Below, piece after piece: positions 42,079 through 50,785 of a stretch of 64,000 bases of DNA. Below the pieces are notes generated by a model. The model saw nothing but the letters and a program-made list of their open reading frames with translations. It was not told the origin of the DNA and searched no databases. The position numbers were made by a program, and so were the translations under genes. The stretch is from Sphingomonas sp. URHD0057 (GTDB lineage: Bacteria; Pseudomonadota; Alphaproteobacteria; Sphingomonadales; Sphingomonadaceae): the NCBI RefSeq assembly GCF_000620665.1, contig NZ_KK211162.1, positions 186,001 through 250,000 of the forward strand, given 5' to 3'. Each line of letters starts with the position of its first letter. Positions within the stretch are counted from its first letter, which is position 1.

Positions 42079-44367
42079 TCACTCGGCGCTAACGAAGCTG
42101 TCCAGCACCTTCTTGCGGCCAGAATGCTCGAAGTCGATCTCGAGCTTGTTGCCTTCGATCGCAGCGATGGTGCCGTAGCCGAACTTGCCGTGGAACACGC
42201 GCTGGCCGAGCGCGAGATCGTCGCGGCCCTTGTTGCCGAGGCTGACAGCGGAAGCGCGCGCTTCGATGATCCGCTGCGGTTCGGGATTGAAGCCGCCGCG
42301 GCTGGCCCGCTGCCAGCCTGGCCCTCGCGTTGAAGCGCGCATCGATTGCGCAGGTCCCAAGTGAGCAAAAGGATCAGCCCGCTCCGACCATTGGGCGCGC
42401 CACAGGCTCTCGCCGCCGGTCATGGTTGTCTCTTCTTCCACATGCGCCTTGGGCAGCTCGGCGAGGAACCGCGACGGGATCGAGCTGGTCCATTGGCCAT
42501 AGATGCGCCGGTTTGCCGCATGCGAGATCGTTGCCTTGCGACGAGCCCGGGTGATCGCGACGTAAGCAAGCCGCCGCTCTTCCTCGAGCGCGGCAAGCCC
42601 GCCTTCGTCGAGCGCGCGCTGCGATGGAAACACGCCTTCTTCCCAGCCGGGAAGATAGACGACGTCGAACTCAAGGCCCTTGGCGGCGTGAATGGTCATG
42701 ATTGTGACGCGCTCGCCCTGGCGCGCCTCGTCATTGTCCATGACCAGCGACACATGCTCGAGAAACGCCTGGAGCGAGTCATAGTCTTCCATCGCCCGGG
42801 TGAGCTCGGCGAGGTTCTCGAGCCGGCCAGCGCTTTCGGCCGAGCGATCGGCCTGAAGCATCGCCGTGTAGCCACTCTCGTCGAGCATGATCCGGGCCAG
42901 CTCGGGATGCGGCAACTCGCTCGCCATCTGCCGCCAGCGCGCCAAGTCGGCGATGAAATTGCCGAGGCTGCGGCGAGCCTGGGAGGTCAGCTCATCGGTA
43001 TCCAGCGCGGCCGCGGCAGCGAGGAGAAGCGGCTGCTGCACTGCTCGGGCGTGGCGATGAATGGTGGCGACGGCCTTGTCACCGAGACCGCGTTTGGGCT
43101 GATTGACGATCCGTTCGAAGGCGAGGTCGTCGGCAGGCTGAACGATCAGACGGAGATAGGCGATCGCATCGCGGATCTCGGCCCGTTCGTAGAAGCGGAA
43201 ACCGCCGATGATCTGATAGTTGAGCCCGATCGATATGAAGCGCTCTTCGAACTCGCGGGTCTGGAACTGGGCACGGACGAGAATCGCGACATCATCGAGC
43301 GACTTGCCCGCGGCTTCGTGGCGCTCGACCTCTTCGCCGATGCGGCGAGCCTCTTCCGGGCCGTCCCAGACGCCAATGGCGCGGACCTTTTCGCCATCGC
43401 CGGCCTCGGTCCACAGGGTCTTGCCGAGGCGCCCGGCGTTGTGGGCGATGAGGCCGTCGGCCGCTGCCAGGATGTGGCTGGTCGAGCGATAGTTCTGCTC
43501 GAGGCGGATGACCTTGGCGCCGGGGAAATCATGCTCGAACTTGAGGATGTTGGCGACCTCGGCGCCGCGCCAGGAATAGATCGACTGGTCGTCGTCGCCG
43601 ACGCAGCACAGGTTGCGGCGCGGCTCGGCGAGCAGCTTCAGCCACTCATACTGCGCGCTGTTGGTGTCCTGATATTCGTCGACGAGCAAATAACGGAAGC
43701 GGTCGCGGTAGCGCTCGAGCACGTCCGGATGGCGGCGGAAGATCACCAGCATGTGCAGGAGCAGGTCGCCGAAGTCGCAGCAGTTCAGCGTCTTCAGGCG
43801 GTTCTGATATTGGGCGTAGAGCGCGGCCCCGCGACCCGCGGCAAAAGCCTCGGACTCGCCGGCGTCGACCTGCTCCGGAGTCCAGCCGCGGTTCTTCCAG
43901 CGGTCGATCAGCGCAACGAGCTGGCGCGCCGGCCAGCGCTTTTCATCGAGGTTGGCGGCACTGATGAGCTGCTTGAGAACGCGGAGTTGATCGTCGGTGT
44001 CGAGGATGGTGAAATTGGACTGGAGTCCAACGACCTCGGCGTGGCTTCGCAGCATGCGCGCGGCGACCGAGTGAAAGGTGCCGAGCCACGGCATGCCCTC
44101 GAGCGCGCCACCGGAGAGGCGCCCGACCCGCTCGCGCATCTCGCGAGCCGCCTTGTTGGTGAAGGTGACCGCGAGAATCTGGCTCGGCCACGCCAGCCGG
44201 GTCGCGATCAGATGGGCAAGCCGCGCCGTCAGTGCCGCGGTCTTGCCGGTGCCCGCACCGGCAAGGACGAGCACCGGGCCTTCGGTTGTAAGCACCGCTT
44301 CGCGCTGGGGCGGATTCAGGCCCTGAAGATAGGCAGGCTCGGGACTGAGGGCAGGAGATTCAGGCAC
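42079..44367 (-). CDS. uvrD: UvrD/PcrA-type ATP-dependent DNA helicase
   Basis: 762 residues from a GTG at 44367. All superfamily 1 motifs: Q motif LNPPQREAV, Walker A VLAGAGTGKTAAL, DEYQDTN, GDDDQSIYSWRGA, LEQNYRS, TIHAAKGLEFDVVYLPGWEEGVFP and YVAITRARR. The last 60 residues (RVFHGKFGYGTIAAIEGNKLEIDFEHSGRKKVLDSFV) form the Tudor-like RNA-polymerase-binding end of PcrA/UvrD. It acts in mismatch and excision repair and in removing blocked polymerase. Confidence 0.95.
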   Translation of the reverse strand: MPESPALSPEPAYLQGLNPPQREAVLTTEGPVLVLAGAGTGKTAALTARLAHLIATRLAWPSQILAVTFTNKAAREMRERVGRLSGGALEGMPWLGTFHSVAARMLRSHAEVVGLQSNFTILDTDDQLRVLKQLISAANLDEKRWPARQLVALIDRWKNRGWTPEQVDAGESEAFAAGRGAALYAQYQNRLKTLNCCDFGDLLLHMLVIFRRHPDVLERYRDRFRYLLVDEYQDTNSAQYEWLKLLAEPRRNLCCVGDDDQSIYSWRGAEVANILKFEHDFPGAKVIRLEQNYRSTSHILAAADGLIAHNAGRLGKTLWTEAGDGEKVRAIGVWDGPEEARRIGEEVERHEAAGKSLDDVAILVRAQFQTREFEERFISIGLNYQIIGGFRFYERAEIRDAIAYLRLIVQPADDLAFERIVNQPKRGLGDKAVATIHRHARAVQQPLLLAAAAALDTDELTSQARRSLGNFIADLARWRQMASELPHPELARIMLDESGYTAMLQADRSAESAGRLENLAELTRAMEDYDSLQAFLEHVSLVMDNDEARQGERVTIMTIHAAKGLEFDVVYLPGWEEGVFPSQRALDEGGLAALEEERRLAYVAITRARRKATISHAANRRIYGQWTSSIPSRFLAELPKAHVEEETTMTGGESLWRAQWSERADPFAHLGPAQSMRASTRGPGWQRASRGGFNPEPQRIIEARASAVSLGNKGRDDLALGQRVFHGKFGYGTIAAIEGNKLEIDFEHSGRKKVLDSFVSAE

Positions 44368-44478
44368 TTGGCCGAGGTAGGCGGGGGAGAACGGAACGGC
44401 AACCGCGACGGCTGCCTCGAGTTGAGGCCGGATTCGCGATTCGCAACAAGGTTCCGACGGTTGTTACCGATATCCCCG

Positions 44479-44487
44479 TTATCCACA
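44479..44487 (+). promoter_or_regulatory. Isolated perfect DnaA box
   Basis: TTATCCACA, the consensus DnaA 9-mer, in the AT-richer stretch between the helicase gene and the candidate RNA promoter. Only one copy was seen, so it is not an origin; it may be chance or regulate the flanking transcripts. Confidence 0.4.
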
Positions 44488-44511
44488 GGCTTCTCACCCA
44501 ATTTTTCGCTT

Positions 44512-44540
44512 TTGCGACTCGGCGGACATGTGCATGGTTA
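44512..44540 (+). promoter_or_regulatory. Candidate promoter for the 44.5-45.0 kb RNA
   Basis: TTGCGA (44512-44517), 17 bases, TGGTTA (44535-44540). Expected start near 44547. The -35 is moderate and the -10 is weak. Confidence 0.35.
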
Positions 44541-44546
44541 TCAGGT

Positions 44547-45040
44547 GATCGGGACGGCGGTCCCGGCCTCCCCAAGAGCCGGCAACGGCAGGCGGGAGCG
44601 GCAGGTGACCAAAGGTCCGATCTCCGCCGGCAGGCGATGTTGAAGCTCTTCGGAGCGGAAGCGCTGTCAGTCGGTATGAGGCGCCGGAAGAGTTGATCTT
44701 CCTCTAGCGCGACGCGGTTTTGAAGCGGTCTTCGGATCGGTGAGAAGCAAAGCGGGACGCAAGAGTGGTCGACCCAAGAAGGGCCGCAGAACATCGGACG
44801 GTTTTGGCTTTGCCAGGCCGGACAGGGCGAAGGACCAGCGAACCCTCGGGCCGCGCAGTCTGGTAGGTCGGTTGGGCTCCTCGCAAGAGGGAGCGGTTCG
44901 ATAGGAAGCGACGCCTGAGCTGGTGAGCCAGGATCGAGAGCGGGTTGGGGCCTTCGGGTTTTAACCAAGTTGCGAACACCGGCATATCCTTCGCTCGGCG
45001 CAGTGGGGGCTGGCAGCAATGCCGGCCCCCATTTCCTTTG
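44547..45040 (+). ncRNA. Candidate structured non-coding RNA of about 490 nt
   Basis: No reading frame here has a convincing start, codon bias or family match, although antisense frames stay open by GC bias. The + strand has a promoter-like signal at 44512, many small hairpins (GGAAGA-GTTGA-TCTTCC at 44685-44703, CTC-GCAA-GAG near 44881, GG-CC-TTCG-GG-TT near 44950) and ends in a strong terminator at 45005. I checked by eye for RNase P RNA, 6S and SRP landmarks and found none. The boundaries are inferred from the promoter and terminator. Confidence 0.4.
45005..45039 (+). terminator. Terminator ending the candidate RNA
   Basis: GGGGGC-T-GGCA pairs with TGCC-G-GCCCCC around a 4-base loop (one T-G pair) and is followed by ATTTCCTTT. 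No coding gene on the + strand precedes it for over 2 kb. Confidence 0.65.
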
Positions 45041-45065
45041 TGCCAACGCGCTTCGCTTATTGCCA

Positions 45066-45174
45066 CAAAGGGTACTTCGCTGCCGAGACGGCAGCTTCGT
45101 TTCCTTTGAAGCGACGGCTGCGCGGATTGCTCCAAAGGCTAGTTCGCCGCCGAGACGGCAGCTTCGGTTCCTTT
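45066..45174 (+). repeat. Two copies of a 43-bp palindromic repeat
   Basis: Copy 1 at 45066-45108 and copy 2 at 45132-45174, about 36 of 43 bases alike. Each begins CAAAGG and ends CCTTT(G), with an inner GC(T/C)GCCG-AGA-CGGCAGC hairpin. The 23 bases between them and the bases on both sides are not coding. The unit reads EPKLPSRRRTSLW or TKLPSRQRSTLC on the minus strand. Confidence 0.8.
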
Positions 45175-45360: not shown

Positions 45361-45969
45361 GTGTTTCAAGTGATCCGCACCCTTGCCGCCTTGGCCCTGC
45401 TCACTGCTTCAGCCCACACAATCGCCGCTACCTCGGCCACCGATCAAGCGACACCAAAAGCCGCCAAGCCAAACGCGAGCTCGAAGGCCGACCCGGTCCT
45501 CAGCCCAACCTCCGAATGGTGGGAAAAAGTGACCGTCACCCTCGCCGGCGACGGCAAGTCCAACTCCTGCCGCTATGAGACCAGCCTGGTTCCCGAGACA
45601 TCGAAGGACTGCGACGTGAGCGGCGACCCCAAGGCGCTCGGCGCTGACGCGCCCCAGTCCAAGGACCAGTTCACGCGGCTGACCTTCGAGCGCCGCTTCA
45701 ACCCGGGATCGATGGCGCCCCAGGACGCCGCGCTGCAGACCGGCGACACGTTGCTCGGCCGCCAGGTCCTGTCGCTGGCGATCGACGCGGCCGGCAAGGT
45801 GAAAGGGTGCCGGGTGATCGCGAAATCGGGCGACATGACTCCGGCCTACAATTGCGAGGATGCGCAATCGGAGCATTTCGAAGCGAGCGCGGCGAAGCCT
45901 GGCGCCGCCGACGCGCACGAAGGCTTTATGACCATCCTCGTCTACGGCCACGAAGAGCATCTGGTCTGA
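45361..45969 (+). CDS. Exported protein with TonB C-terminal-like domain
   Basis: 202 residues from a GTG at 45361. Signal peptide IRTLAALALLTASAHTIAAT, a low-complexity Ala/Lys/Thr linker, then a domain with RYETSLVPETSKDCDVSGDP and GRQVLSLAIDAAGKVKGCRVIAKSGDMTPAYNCEDAQ. The (V/A)xxDxxGxVxxCxVxxSSG pattern with paired cysteines is the TonB C-terminal fold used in TonB-like periplasmic proteins without a membrane anchor. Partner unknown. Confidence 0.65.
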   Translation: MFQVIRTLAALALLTASAHTIAATSATDQATPKAAKPNASSKADPVLSPTSEWWEKVTVTLAGDGKSNSCRYETSLVPETSKDCDVSGDPKALGADAPQSKDQFTRLTFERRFNPGSMAPQDAALQTGDTLLGRQVLSLAIDAAGKVKGCRVIAKSGDMTPAYNCEDAQSEHFEASAAKPGAADAHEGFMTILVYGHEEHLV

Positions 45970-46532: not shown

Positions 46533-47102
46533 GTGCCACGGAAGAAGCAGCTGACATTGGTCGCCGCGAGGAAGCCCCACCTGCGCAAGCGAGCCAAGCG
46601 GGATTGGTCGAAAGCCAAGGCGCGGGCGTTCCTGGAGGCGCTCGCCGACACCTGCAACGTCAGCGAAGCGTGCCGCCGAAGCGGCGTGCCGATGACCGTC
46701 GCCTATCGCCGCCGCAAGATGGACGCGGCGTTCCGCGCCGAGTGGGCGGAGATGATCGCGATCGGCTACCACCGGCTGGAAGCAGTGCTGCTCCGGCGCG
46801 CCTTCGAAGGCACCGTGAGGGTGATCACCAAACGAGACGGCAGGGAAGAGCGGATGCACGAATATCCGAACCAGCTCGGCCTGCAGCTGCTCAAGATGCA
46901 CCGCGAGACTGCGCTGGAAATAGACGACGGGATGGCCGCCGAGGACGTCGATGAAATCCGCGAGCGGCTGGTCCGCAAATTGCAACGGCTGAAGAAGCGG
47001 GATGAAGCGCAGGAAGCGGAAAGAGCCCAATTACGGGGTGATGCGCCACGAGATGGCGATGCTGAAGAATGCAACGGAGGACCAACAAAGACGGGCGCTT
47101 AA
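46533..47102 (+). CDS. Terminase small subunit-like protein (GTA-type)
   Basis: 189 residues from a GTG with SD GGAG. The basic N terminus is followed by a helix-turn-helix-like region (AFLEALADTCNVSEACRRSGVPMTVAYRRRKMDAAFRAEWAEMI), the DNA-recognition module of small terminases, and a helical middle (LRRAFEGTVRVITKRDGREERMHEYPNQLGLQLLKMHRE). It lies directly before the large subunit gene and overlaps it by 101 bases. Assigned from position and the HTH. Confidence 0.7.
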   Translation: MPRKKQLTLVAARKPHLRKRAKRDWSKAKARAFLEALADTCNVSEACRRSGVPMTVAYRRRKMDAAFRAEWAEMIAIGYHRLEAVLLRRAFEGTVRVITKRDGREERMHEYPNQLGLQLLKMHRETALEIDDGMAAEDVDEIRERLVRKLQRLKKRDEAQEAERAQLRGDAPRDGDAEECNGGPTKTGA

Positions 47103-48354
47103 GCATGCCACGCCCGAGAAGCTGCTCTCGCTCGATGCCGCCTTCGAGCACTGGGCGCACGCCAACCAGCTGCCGCCGAACGGTGAGGGCTGGCGCGTAT
47201 GGCTGATGATGGCGGGACGCGGGTTCGGGAAGACCCGCGCCGGCGGGGAGTGGATCTTCCGCCTTGCCGAAGGAAAGCCCAAGAGCCGCATTGCGCTGGT
47301 CGGGGCGACGATCGCGGACGCACGCAGCATCATGGTAGAGGGTGTCAGCGGCTTGCTGACGATCGCGCGGCGGTTCCGCCGGCGGCTCCGCTGGCAACCT
47401 AGCCTCTCGCGCCTGACCTGGCCCAATGGGAGCGAGGCGCAGTTGTTTTCGGGCGACAATGGTGACGGACTGCGCGGGCCGGAGCATGATTTTGCCTGGG
47501 CGGACGAGCTGGCGAAGTGGCGCGAGGCCGATCAGGCATGGGTGAATTTACAGTTCGGGCTGCGGCGGGGCCCGAGGCCGCGGGCGTTGGTTACGACCAC
47601 CCCGCGGCCACTTCAGTTGCTCAAGCAGATCGCCGACGATCCGTGGACGATCACCACGCGCGGTCGAACCAGGGACAATATCAATTTGGATGAGAAGACG
47701 ATCGAGGTGCTGACCGCGACCTATGGCGGAACGCGGATCGGGCGGCAGGAGCTCGACGGCGAGATGCTGACCGACGTGGAAGGCGCGCTGTGGACCTGGG
47801 AGATGATCGACGGGGCGCGGGCGGAGCCTCAGAGGAGAGAGGATTTCGACCGGATCGTCGTCGGGGTCGACCCGCCGGCGGGCGCCAGCGAAGGATCGGA
47901 TGCCTGCGGCATCGTCGTTGCCGGAGCAATCGGCGAGACCCTGCACGTTCTCGAAGACGCGAGCGTCCGCGGGCTGAGCCCGGAAGGCTGGGCCAACCGG
48001 GTGGCCGCGGCGGCCGCGCGATGGGACACGCATCTGGTCGTGGCCGAAGCCAACAATGGCGGAGCGATGGTCGAAAGCGTCCTCAAAGCCGCCGATCTGG
48101 GGCTCAGGGTCCGGTTGGTCCACGCATCGAAAGGAAAGAGCGCGAGAGCGGAGCCGATCGCGCTCAGGTTCGAACGCGGGAAGGCGCTGTTCGCCGGGAA
48201 GTTTCCGGCACTGGAGGCGGAGCTGGCGGGATTGCAGGCCGGCGGCGGTTACGAAGGCCCGGGACGCTCGCCCGACCGCGCCGACGCGATGGTGTGGGCG
48301 ATGACGGCATTGAGCGAGGCGCGGAGCGGGGTGCCGCGCGTGAGGAGGTTGTGA
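47002..48354 (+). CDS. Terminase large subunit, gene transfer agent/phage type
   Basis: 450 residues from the ATG at 47002; ATGs at 47041 or 47053 would shorten the overlap with the small subunit. ATPase: WLMMAGRGFGKTRAGGEW (Walker A), FAWADELAKW (Walker B with Glu). RNase H-like nuclease: DRIVVGVDPPAG, LVVAEANNGG and SPDRADAMVWA carry the acidic residues. It packages DNA into a capsid. The close relatives of this compact type are in alphaproteobacterial GTA clusters. No portal, protease or capsid gene follows. Confidence 0.9.
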   Translation: MKRRKRKEPNYGVMRHEMAMLKNATEDQQRRALKHATPEKLLSLDAAFEHWAHANQLPPNGEGWRVWLMMAGRGFGKTRAGGEWIFRLAEGKPKSRIALVGATIADARSIMVEGVSGLLTIARRFRRRLRWQPSLSRLTWPNGSEAQLFSGDNGDGLRGPEHDFAWADELAKWREADQAWVNLQFGLRRGPRPRALVTTTPRPLQLLKQIADDPWTITTRGRTRDNINLDEKTIEVLTATYGGTRIGRQELDGEMLTDVEGALWTWEMIDGARAEPQRREDFDRIVVGVDPPAGASEGSDACGIVVAGAIGETLHVLEDASVRGLSPEGWANRVAAAAARWDTHLVVAEANNGGAMVESVLKAADLGLRVRLVHASKGKSARAEPIALRFERGKALFAGKFPALEAELAGLQAGGGYEGPGRSPDRADAMVWAMTALSEARSGVPRVRRL

Positions 48355-48427
48355 AGACCAGCATGGCCGTTGGGTAACTGGCGAACTGTCCCGACCAAAG
48401 GTAGACGACAGGCCAGGGGGAAGCGGT

Positions 48428-49252
48428 ATGGCGACAATTGCCGGGGGATTTTTCGAGCGCGAGCGTCGGCCCGATGCGCTATCCGGCACCCCGCGAGCGC
48501 ATGCCATCGACCGCTGGATCTTCGTCGGCATGGCGGTCTGGTTCATCGCCATTACGCTGACCGGGTTCATCCCGGATTCGATCATGAAAGTCGGAATGGT
48601 GCAGGCCGGTGCGCGGCCGCCGTTCCCGATCGTACTGCACATGCATGCGGTTCTGATGGGATCGTTCCTGCTGATCTTGTTCACGCAGACGTGGCTGATG
48701 GCGACGGGGCGGCGCGGGCTGCACATGCAGCTCGGCGTCCTCGGGATGGTAGTAGCCGCCGCGCTTGTGGCGGTCGGCTTCGTCCTCGCGCCAACGATGT
48801 ATTATCAGACCTGGAACGCCTTGCAGTCGGCTCCGCCCGCGGGCCGGGCGGAGTTGCAGCAAGTGCTCTCGGTCAAGGACAACATCCTGCTGCTGCAGAT
48901 GCGGATCGGAATCCTGTTCCCGCTGTTCCTGGTGATCGGCCTGCGCGCACGAGGGGCAAACGCGGGATTGCACAAGAGAATGATGTTCCTGGCGACAGTG
49001 ATGGCTCTGCCGGCCGGCATCGACCGGATCAGCTGGCTGCCAACGGCCTTCCCCGCCAGCCCGCTGTCGGTCGACCTGTATACCGTGCTGGCGATCTCGC
49101 CGATGCTCGTTTGGGACTTGGTCCGCAATCGCCGGCTGCACGAGGCCTATTGGATCTGGTTCGCAGTTACGATCCCGGCCGCGGTCGTGGTGAACCTGTT
49201 GTGGGATACGGCGGCGTGGCATGCGACGGCGAGGCAGATTCTCGGCGTGTGA
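48428..49252 (+). CDS. Seven-helix membrane protein of unknown function
   Basis: 274 residues, seven hydrophobic segments starting at WIFVGMAVWFIAITLTGFIP. PIVLHMHAVLMGSFLLILFTQ carries two histidines within a helix, and NAGLHKRMMFLATVMALPAGIDRI another, which could hold heme or metal. No family assigned with confidence. It sits in the gap where GTA structural genes would normally be, but it is not phage-like. Confidence 0.7.
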   Translation: MATIAGGFFERERRPDALSGTPRAHAIDRWIFVGMAVWFIAITLTGFIPDSIMKVGMVQAGARPPFPIVLHMHAVLMGSFLLILFTQTWLMATGRRGLHMQLGVLGMVVAAALVAVGFVLAPTMYYQTWNALQSAPPAGRAELQQVLSVKDNILLLQMRIGILFPLFLVIGLRARGANAGLHKRMMFLATVMALPAGIDRISWLPTAFPASPLSVDLYTVLAISPMLVWDLVRNRRLHEAYWIWFAVTIPAAVVVNLLWDTAAWHATARQILGV

Positions 49253-49285
49253 CACCTCGCCAATCCGGGCGACATTAGATTTACC

Positions 49286-49313
49286 AAGGGCTCCTTCGGG
49301 AGCCCTTTTCTTT
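49286..49313 (+). terminator. Terminator-like hairpin directly before the GTA tail gene
   Basis: AAGGGCTCC (49286-49294), loop TTCG, GGAGCCCTT (49299-49307), then TTTCTTT. The SD AGGAG starts immediately after the T tract (49314), 7 bases from the tail-gene ATG region. It could terminate the membrane-protein transcript and still lie in the leader of the tail gene. Confidence 0.8.
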
Positions 49314-49324
49314 AGGAGCGAGCG

Positions 49325-50785
49325 ATGGGGTGGTTCGGGCGCATTTTGACATTCGAGGTCGTGGCCGACGCCGACGCGCCGACTGCGGGTGAAATCCTGT
49401 TTGACAGCTCGAATGGCGCAATTGCCGACGTGGGCGGTCGATCGATCGGGGGCTACGCCTGTTATGGCGCTTCCATCAAAGCCGCGGTGAAACCGCTGGT
49501 TGATTGCTGTGCCATCGACCTGCTCGACGACGGACTACAGCTCAGGTCCGTGCCGTCTGCGCTCCTGCCGATTTCGGATTTCGACCTGGGCTACAGCGCC
49601 GATGGCCAAGCATCATCGAAGATCGAGCGCGTGCAGGCGCCTGCACGAGACGTGCCGACCTCGCTCCGATTGAGCTATTATGACCCGGCACTGGACTATC
49701 AAACAGGCGAAAGCCGAGCGAGCACAGGCGAGCAAGACGGCAAGGAGGAGCGCGTCGAGTTGCCGGCCGTGCTCCCGGCGAGCATCGCAAAGTCGCTCGT
49801 CGAGGAAGCGATGGCCCGCGCCTGGGCGAAGCGCGACAAGCTAACCCTGCGTTTGCCACCAGCGCAACTGGACCTCCGGCCTGGAGTGCGATTGGAGATC
49901 CCGCTCAGCCCCTCGCACTGGACGGTCGAAACCTGCAATATCGAATCCTTCGTGGTCATTGCCGAGCTCCGGCCATGTCGCCCGACCGGGCTGGCGCTCA
50001 TCGCGGACTCCGGCCGCATAGCTAGCAACCCAGACGTCGTCGTCGGGGATCTGACGCTGGCACTGTTCGAGACGCCCGCGGCTCTTTCTCTTCCCAACGC
50101 GCCATCGGTGATGCTGGCCGCGTCCTCATCAACGACCGGTTGGAAAAGCCGCGGCGTGGAGGTCGGCGTAGGGAATCAGGGCAGCATTCTCCGAACGCCC
50201 GCTCGAAAGTCCAAGCTCGGACGAGCGTTGAGCGCGCTGGCCTCAAGTGGCGATCCGGTGATTAGCGTCGACATAGAAATGGTCGATGCCAACCAATGGC
50301 TAGTGAGCTGCGACGATGACGCCCTGGCCCAAGGGGCGAACGCGGCAATTCTTGGCCGGGAAATCGTTCAATTCGGCGATGCGGTTCCGATCGGCCCGGG
50401 GCGGTTCCGGCTCTCTCGCCTTCTCCGTGGGCGCGATCGTACGGGATGGGCCACGGTTGGGCATACGACCGACGAATGGTTCGTGCTGATCGAAACCGAT
50501 GCCCTGCGCGTCATCGAACTTCCGTCCTGGTCGATCGGAGCGCAAGCATCCGCCAAGGGAATCGGAGCGGGAGCAGGAGCTGCCGAAGCGCACGCAACGA
50601 TCGGATGGGGAGGGTTGCGGCCGCTGAGTGGATCGGCCTTGCTTCTCGACGGAGTACAAGTGGTCGGAGCAAGATGCTCGGCCATTGCCTCGCCGACGGG
50701 CGGAACCACCATTGATACGCAGGCGCGCTCGACCCTGAATCAGCTGCTCAGCGCGCTCCGTCAGCACGGTCTGATCGAAATCTAA
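49325..50785 (+). CDS. Truncated GTA tail (host-specificity/baseplate) protein
   Basis: 486 residues. The sequence resembles the C-terminal half of the large GTA tail protein (orfg15 of Rhodobacter, rcc01698-like): VPTSLRLSYYDPALDYQTGESRA, ERVELPAVLPASIAKSLVEEAMARAWAKRDKLTLRLPPAQLDLRPGVRLEI and the end region RLSRLLRGRDRTGWATVGHTTDEWFVLIE. The full family is far longer, with preceding domains that are missing here. The start ATG is preceded by AGGAG, so the shortened gene may still be translated. It no longer has tail partners around it. Confidence 0.72.
   Translation: MGWFGRILTFEVVADADAPTAGEILFDSSNGAIADVGGRSIGGYACYGASIKAAVKPLVDCCAIDLLDDGLQLRSVPSALLPISDFDLGYSADGQASSKIERVQAPARDVPTSLRLSYYDPALDYQTGESRASTGEQDGKEERVELPAVLPASIAKSLVEEAMARAWAKRDKLTLRLPPAQLDLRPGVRLEIPLSPSHWTVETCNIESFVVIAELRPCRPTGLALIADSGRIASNPDVVVGDLTLALFETPAALSLPNAPSVMLAASSSTTGWKSRGVEVGVGNQGSILRTPARKSKLGRALSALASSGDPVISVDIEMVDANQWLVSCDDDALAQGANAAILGREIVQFGDAVPIGPGRFRLSRLLRGRDRTGWATVGHTTDEWFVLIETDALRVIELPSWSIGAQASAKGIGAGAGAAEAHATIGWGGLRPLSGSALLLDGVQVVGARCSAIASPTGGTTIDTQARSTLNQLLSALRQHGLIEI

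Follow-up and report, generated by a model that had tools for sequence, protein, structure and literature searches.

Our results suggest that the 64-kb stretch of Sphingomonas sp. URHD0057 DNA analysed here (64,000 nucleotides; the window) carries on its plus strand, at 44545-45036, the gene for an undescribed, free-standing, structured non-coding RNA of about 490 nt, whose transcription is predicted. On the evidence from homologous sequences, we regard it as nearly certain that this is a new structured RNA family. Comparison between relatives establishes the RNA fold (helices P3, P6 and P8 and the terminator), the strand, the non-coding nature of the element, its conservation, and the fixed placement of a DnaA box and a GANTC site in front of it. 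The overall best explanation, to which we assign a probability of roughly 0.6, is that this RNA gene has a cell-cycle-timed promoter and produces a trans-acting RNA. The features of the locus are collected in Table 1.

Table 1. Features of the RNA locus and their positions in the window.
Feature	Position	Strand	Remarks
uvrD/pcrA helicase gene	42079-44367	-	Pfam; divergent neighbour, context only, outside the RNA
Perfect DnaA box TTATCCACA	44479-44487	+	Conserved flanks 44468-44489
-35-like hexamer TTTTGC	44510-44515	+	Putative; cross-genus promoter alignment
GANTC site GACTC, CcrM/GcrA type	44516-44520	+	29 nt before predicted start; adjoins -35-like hexamer
-10-like hexamer CATGGT	44533-44538	+	Putative; 17 nt from -35-like hexamer; CAT-type position recurs
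Structured non-coding RNA	44545-45036	+	About 490 nt; predicted 5' end, 3' end at terminator
P1 5' strand GAUCGG	44547-44552	+	Pairs with 44617-44622; closes 5' domain; consensus folds
P1 3' strand CCGAUC	44617-44622	+	Consensus folds
P2 5' strand CCGGC	44627-44631	+	Pairs with 44670-44674 (GUCGG)
P2 3' strand GUCGG	44670-44674	+	Pairs with 44627-44631
Core motif GGCGCCGGAAGA	44680-44691	+	GGC[G/A]CCGGAAG kept in 46/46 genus copies
P3 5' strand GUUGAUC	44692-44698	+	Pairs with 44767-44773; covariation
P3 3' strand GGUCGAC	44767-44773	+	Covariation
Core motif CCAAGAAGGGC	44774-44784	+	CCA[A/G]GAAGG..GC in 54/54 copies
P6 5' strand CGC	44785-44787	+	Pairs with 44908-44910
P6 3' strand GCG	44908-44910	+	Pairs with 44785-44787
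P7 5' strand GCC-U-GAGC	44913-44920	+	Pairs with 44993-44999 (GCUCGGC); 3'-domain alignment
P7 3' strand GCUCGGC	44993-44999	+	3'-domain alignment
P8 5' strand GCC.GG.UCG	44927-44936	+	Pairs with 44973-44983
P8 3' strand CGA...CCGGC	44973-44983	+	Pairs with 44927-44936
Intrinsic terminator, 14 pairs	45002-45033 (element from 45004)	+	GGGGGCUGGC AGCAAU GCCGGCCCCC, then UUU

A scan of the window with Rfam 15 at gathering thresholds returned a tmRNA (1756-2112) and a tRNA, and nothing at the RNA. The RNA stretch itself gave no match at E<=1 and two matches up to E 5, both far below threshold, the best scoring 18.5 bits where its family threshold is 100. In 15 relatives the same library matched nothing but a tRNA and a suhB, neither of them within the RNA. 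RNase P is encoded elsewhere in the genome (272 bits), and the sole 6S RNA match, at C3:690862-691012 of the genome, reaches 34.3 bits with a cut-off of 46.4, so the 6S RNA of this genome may be divergent. A literature search, mostly without full texts, found no description of the new RNA.

Nor could a kept reading frame be found among the homologues, in sense or antisense. Matches to the antisense ORF switch frame inside single homologues. In the sense direction the RNA holds four stop-free stretches of at least 40 codons, and at most 4 of 16 homologues cover any one of them to 90% in a single frame. Moreover, 115 of the 146 indels relative to the window copy (L001) are not multiples of three.

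None of 100 dinucleotide shuffles folds as stably as the plus strand (z -3.26). In support of this orientation, CTTCGG occurs 134 times and its complement CCGAAG 10 times in 46 copies from the genus, an excess that identifies the plus strand as the RNA; the corresponding counts in 44 named copies are 104 and 27. The terminator stem covaries, with one pair switching between G-C, C-G and A-U and 4 of 12 pairs changed on both sides in the 3'-domain alignment. Two weaker terminator sites lie just 3' of the main one, making three in the region where 1.0 is expected. Directly 3' of the terminator, an imperfect tandem repeat of about 75 nt (82% identical, 45032-45174) contains the small hairpins GCTGCCGAGACGGCAGC.

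The helices were assessed in two alignments. The first covers the 3' domain in 30 copies under a stated structure: 97.2% of its cells are paired and 9 of 29 pairs are changed on both sides, either value being reached by none of 500 shuffles, and sliding the structure out of register leaves at most 40.9% paired. Within it, 4 of the 8 pairs of P8 are changed on both sides; most P7 pairs are invariant, and P7 appears longer by eye in locus L074. The second alignment covers the middle domain in the 46 genus copies, which remained from 56 loci after removal of 6 duplicates and of L070, L075 and L179 (no recognised terminator) and L017 (no box pattern). Its fixed frame runs from GGCGCCGGAAGA through P3 and P3' to CCAAGAAGGGCCGC. 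P3 in these 46 copies has 93.1% of its cells paired (71.5% after shuffling) and scores 0.731 for covariation, where shuffling gives 0.297 +/- 0.022; none of 500 shuffles reaches either value. All 7 P3 pairs are changed on both sides (5.2 after shuffling), a value that 22 of 500 shuffles also reach, the figure for the other four measures being 0. A local hairpin GGAAGA...UCUUCC, first proposed by RNAalifold on whole alignments, was dropped because P3 claims the same bases and covaries strongly.

P6 is short and constant in its pairing: its three pairs form in 54 of 54 copies (8 of them from outside the 46 genus copies, with L179 added), the third pair being C-G, U-G, G-C or A-U, and a register shifted by one can form in at most 5 of the 54. 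The fourth pair of P2 occurs as G-C, G-U and A-U by eye, with no formal count. Note that P1 is near-invariant and thus has no covariation support, which leaves it unproven. The core sequence GGCGCCGGAAG is present too in L073, L074, L115, L125, L126, L131, L147, L170 and L179, of which L073 and L170 are apparently one sequence.

These results agree well with the first-pass annotation, which had proposed here, from the letters of the DNA, a structured RNA of about 490 nt with many tetraloop-type hairpins and a strong terminator, and with neither a credible protein nor a common RNA landmark. Covariation analysis was positive for P3, P6, the 3' helices including P8, and the terminator; UUCG tetraloops show a marked sense polarity; the terminator is indeed strong; neither the Rfam scan nor the coding-conservation test, two of the three refuting conditions set in that annotation, counted against it; and the landmarks lie elsewhere, RNase P and the 6S candidate among them. 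The GANTC element, the family-wide spread and the conservation of promoter and terminator are additions to that annotation.

The RNA is widespread among close relatives. Within the window's genus, a clade including S. daechungensis KACC 18115 and S. cremea G124 that we take to be Sphingomicrobium, 31 of 37 genomes have a BLAST homologue; of 24 genomes from the rest of the order, none has. Loci L172 and L178 belong to two culturable members of the genus, S. sediminicola KACC 15039 and S. daechungensis KACC 18115. Two RNA models reached further: R1, built on the 3' domain, and R2, an independent model of the core. R1 recovered at least one genome that BLAST had missed (G006, 75.9 bits) and, across 296 genomes of the order, matched 170 times at E<=0.01, 106 genomes having no match. 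Among the matches listed, all 22 same-genus genomes are positive (weakest E=0.0088), and the positive genomes all belong to the window's family except G041. Many weak R1 matches are the terminator alone. When genomes from across the class were drawn as a control, 14 of the 285 that do not belong to the family gave R1 matches, of up to 33.4 bits; matches below about 34 bits were taken as chance in the genus counts. Scores of at least 36 bits were obtained, among the matches listed, in 46 genomes belonging to 17 further genera.

R2 matched 9 of 68 candidate sources and none of 10 control sources at E<=0.01, the positives including S. changbaiensis, S. horti, S. quercus, S. colocasiae and Sphingobium boeckii, and R1 scores of 55-78 bits are reached by six of the named loci that contain the core (L115, L125, L126, L131, L147 and L170). 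Several other lineages of the Sphingomonadaceae carry copies that share this core, and the RNA appears, from these comparisons, to have been retained by a bacterial family of soils and waters. R2 found no match at E<0.1 in 41 loci further away, so homology of the RNA body is not established there. In distant genera, for instance those like Erythrobacter, promoter and terminator are alike and the body of 500-600 nt is unmatched. We read the RNAs of these genera as orthologues that evolve fast; the likeness of promoter and terminator may also be convergence.

The setting of the gene argues for independence. The stretch 44512-45040 is flanked by uvrD and a small hypothetical ORF (45361-45969). 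Of 20 genus regions fetched, up to 20 kb each, 19 (all but L051) were searched for the RNA sequence, and in all 19 it was located, adjoining uvrD and pointing away from it. In a second set, uvrD lies in the flank of 20 of 21 genus loci; the exception, L070 (G226), has flanks without a uvrD match, so the RNA gene may sit elsewhere even within the genus. The genes 3' of the RNA vary within the genus, and the nearest flanking genes differ among genera (30 loci, crude ORF picking). A conserved downstream gene, such as a leader or riboswitch would have, was found neither within the genus nor between genera. With its own terminator and variable downstream genes the RNA does not look like a leader, and since uvrD is its neighbour in the genus and other genes take that place in other genera, it is probably a free-standing, trans-acting RNA.

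The locus is not at oriC, as judged by coarse GC skew. In two genomes of the set (G023:C1 and G318:C1, 20 samples each) the RNA lies well off the skew minimum, in the chromosome half nearer the maximum, and the skew of the window has no sign change at the RNA. Further downstream, 46533-50785 holds remnants of a cluster like those of gene transfer agents, with a large terminase (47002-48354), an Rcc01698-like tail protein (49325-50785) and, between them, a protein without a Pfam match (48428-49252). These genes were rejected as part of the RNA system: terL occurs in 1 of 20 genus regions (L037), and in L054.

In the promoter region, the perfect DnaA box of the first-pass annotation was found just upstream. 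Its promoter-like pair is not outstanding when taken alone, a sigma-70 consensus scan of the region returning 0 sites, and the promoter is visible through conservation only. The box is the only TTATNCACA in the 64-kb window, where 0.29 is expected; at least one occurs in 24 of 100 shuffles, so the box in the window alone is not beyond chance. The genome (2.79 Mb) has 10 copies of TTATCCACA and 7 of the reversed control. It is by its conserved placement in relatives that the box exceeds chance: a DnaA-type box stands 66-67 nt before the conserved RNA start GTGATCGGG in 30 of 30 genus loci found by BLAST, with the exact TTATCCACA in 25. The exact box is also present in 41 of the 46 extracted genus copies, a count that is not independent because extraction required a DnaA-like box.

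In 38 of the 46 genus copies a GANTC site precedes the RNA start by 28-30 nt (offset counts 23, 13 and 2); widening the frame slightly raises the count to 39, with GACTC in 37 and GAATC in 2. In the window the site is within about 40 bp of the predicted start, the distance used as a criterion for GcrA/CcrM promoters, and its minus strand, CGAGTCG, fits the extended motif YGAKTCK given in the available part of PMC7987155.

Loci found by the RNA model alone provided a cleaner promoter test. The exact box, forward or inverted, is upstream of 9 of 9 such loci of other genera among L073-L082. Forty further model-found loci were then picked, each genus contributing one or more, and compared with background windows from two genomes: a box together with CTT..GANTC occurs within 800 nt upstream of 20 of the 40 and in 1 of 1920 background windows, and the exact box in 17 of 40 and 0 of 1920. 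Searching 246 genomes for the promoter pattern itself gave 19 with a forward box, 7 with an inverted box and 0 for the reversed-pattern controls. Among these matches, L083 and L105 were rejected as RNA loci, since an apparent coding sequence follows by eye; in L105 (G266) the DnaA-box and GANTC pattern precedes what looks, from its translation, like an HNH-nuclease-type gene. A pattern scan of named genomes gave 71 matches, 5 of which (L119, L120, L142, L144 and L151) come from unrelated groups and were counted as chance. In genus g32 (L077, L078, L080 and L081), a CU-rich stretch CTCCTCCTC lies about 100-200 nt upstream of the inverted box, with a hairpin and a T-run after it; by eye, this is possibly an anti-Shine-Dalgarno sRNA gene.

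The genome encodes both proteins expected to act at such a promoter. A model search found GcrA (the same search also matched a Sulfolobus control) and a CcrM-type RAMA protein, for which Caulobacter alone matched among the controls. According to the available parts of PMC7987155 and PMC3667746, on Caulobacter and Brevundimonas, GcrA is believed to work together with sigma-70 at promoters that have a methylation site beside them, and at ctrAP1 it occupies the -35 region next to a GANTC. Our analysis finds a promoter geometry that fits this GcrA/GANTC pattern. The accessible part of PMC3667746 also reports that mutating GANTC in Caulobacter left ctrAP1 and one other promoter unchanged, others losing 60-80% of activity; the unchanged promoters mean that the presence of a GANTC does not prove control.

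We propose the following mechanism. RNA polymerase would start near 44545 and stop at the terminator (45004-45033), from a promoter that combines the GANTC beside the -35-like hexamer with the DnaA box some 66 nt ahead of the start. Both DnaA and GcrA, the latter by sensing CcrM methylation, would set the time of transcription, the box at about -66 adding an input from replication initiation, and RNA output would thus follow the replication cycle. The rigid core formed by GGCGCCGGAAG, P3, CCAAGAAGGGCC and P6 might, more speculatively, hold a protein or another RNA, with the fast-evolving tetraloop hairpins presumably serving as spacers. Cell-cycle-linked transcription we consider rather probable from the arrangement of sites; whether the RNA acts as a trans-acting regulator or RNP scaffold is an even bet. 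The fullest version, in which one sphingomonad promoter is fired by DnaA together with the GcrA/CcrM methylation clock and yields a large RNA that forms an RNP and acts back on replication or division, family-wide and without a known relative, is put forward as a doubtful extension.

The strongest competing account is that of a housekeeping or stress RNA with no cell-cycle role, in which the DnaA box and GANTC set general promoter strength or repress; we judge it unlikely, if a serious contender. It would explain why GANTC is absent from its place in 7 or 8 of the 46 genus copies and why the composite promoter is missing upstream of half of the 40 distant model loci, and it draws on the general over-representation of GANTC in alphaproteobacterial intergenic DNA described in the available part of PMC7987155. 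It fits less well with sites held at fixed spacing, with a GANTC retained as GAATC in two copies, and with the joint occurrence of box and GANTC in many genera.

Another account makes the RNA an antisense regulator resembling CcnA, pairing with the ribosome-binding sites of ctrA and gcrA or dnaA mRNAs. Precedents come from Caulobacter, where CcnA, a cell-cycle ncRNA with DnaA boxes close by, targets the ctrA and gcrA 5' UTRs (available part of PMC8959179), and from Sinorhizobium, where the sRNA EcpR1 modulates the cell cycle (available part of PMC4414408). Against it, CcnA is at oriC and the new RNA elsewhere; purines dominate the conserved core, part of which is paired, and no conserved free anti-Shine-Dalgarno stretch is visible by eye. 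We consider this account improbable.

Much less probable still is that the DNA is the functional element, a DnaA-titrating or origin-like site with the transcript as a by-product. Genera like Erythrobacter do have up to three DnaA-like boxes in an inverted arrangement; covariation at the RNA level, strand-polar tetraloops and a covarying terminator speak against this account, as does a locus placed far from the origin by coarse GC skew in two sampled genomes, with no change of skew sign in the window there. Finally, a CsrB-like sponge soaking up CsrA through many GGA sites is hardly credible: GGAA (218 against 133.8) and CGGAA (102 against 47.0) are over-represented in the 32 RNA bodies, but the over-represented loops are of the UUCG and GNRA type, and the genome gave 0 CsrA matches in a search that was positive in 3 control genomes, so the RNA is not a CsrA sponge; a sponge of this kind would require some other GGA-binding protein. 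The k-mer test on these bodies gave no clear protein-binding or anti-Shine-Dalgarno motif.

If the fullest version of the mechanism is true, the alphaproteobacterial cell cycle has an RNA component here. The promoter would tie an undescribed RNA family to replication and methylation control, and an RNA family with clear covariation is added beyond Rfam 15.

Among known systems, Caulobacter crescentus CcnA, as presented in the available part of PMC8959179, is also an alphaproteobacterial ncRNA with replication regulators in its control region and DnaA boxes nearby. By the same partial description, with which the comparison was made, CcnA is at the origin and presumably CtrA-activated, whereas the new RNA is off the origin and has a GANTC-type promoter. 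RNase P, 6S and tmRNA are stable structured RNAs like the new one, but are encoded elsewhere in this genome (6S as a candidate below its cut-off). OLE, GOLLD, ROOL and HEARO are free-standing, highly structured RNAs of several hundred nt whose role is unknown; the new RNA is alike in size, structure and independence, and differs in lacking a match in Rfam at gathering thresholds or at E<=1, a library that presumably includes these families. CsrB/RsmZ sponges share the many short hairpins and purine-rich linkers but need a CsrA partner, and none was found in this genome. A large, structured, perhaps cell-cycle-linked ncRNA is of a known kind, and the RNA family and its promoter logic are, as far as our tools show, apparently new.
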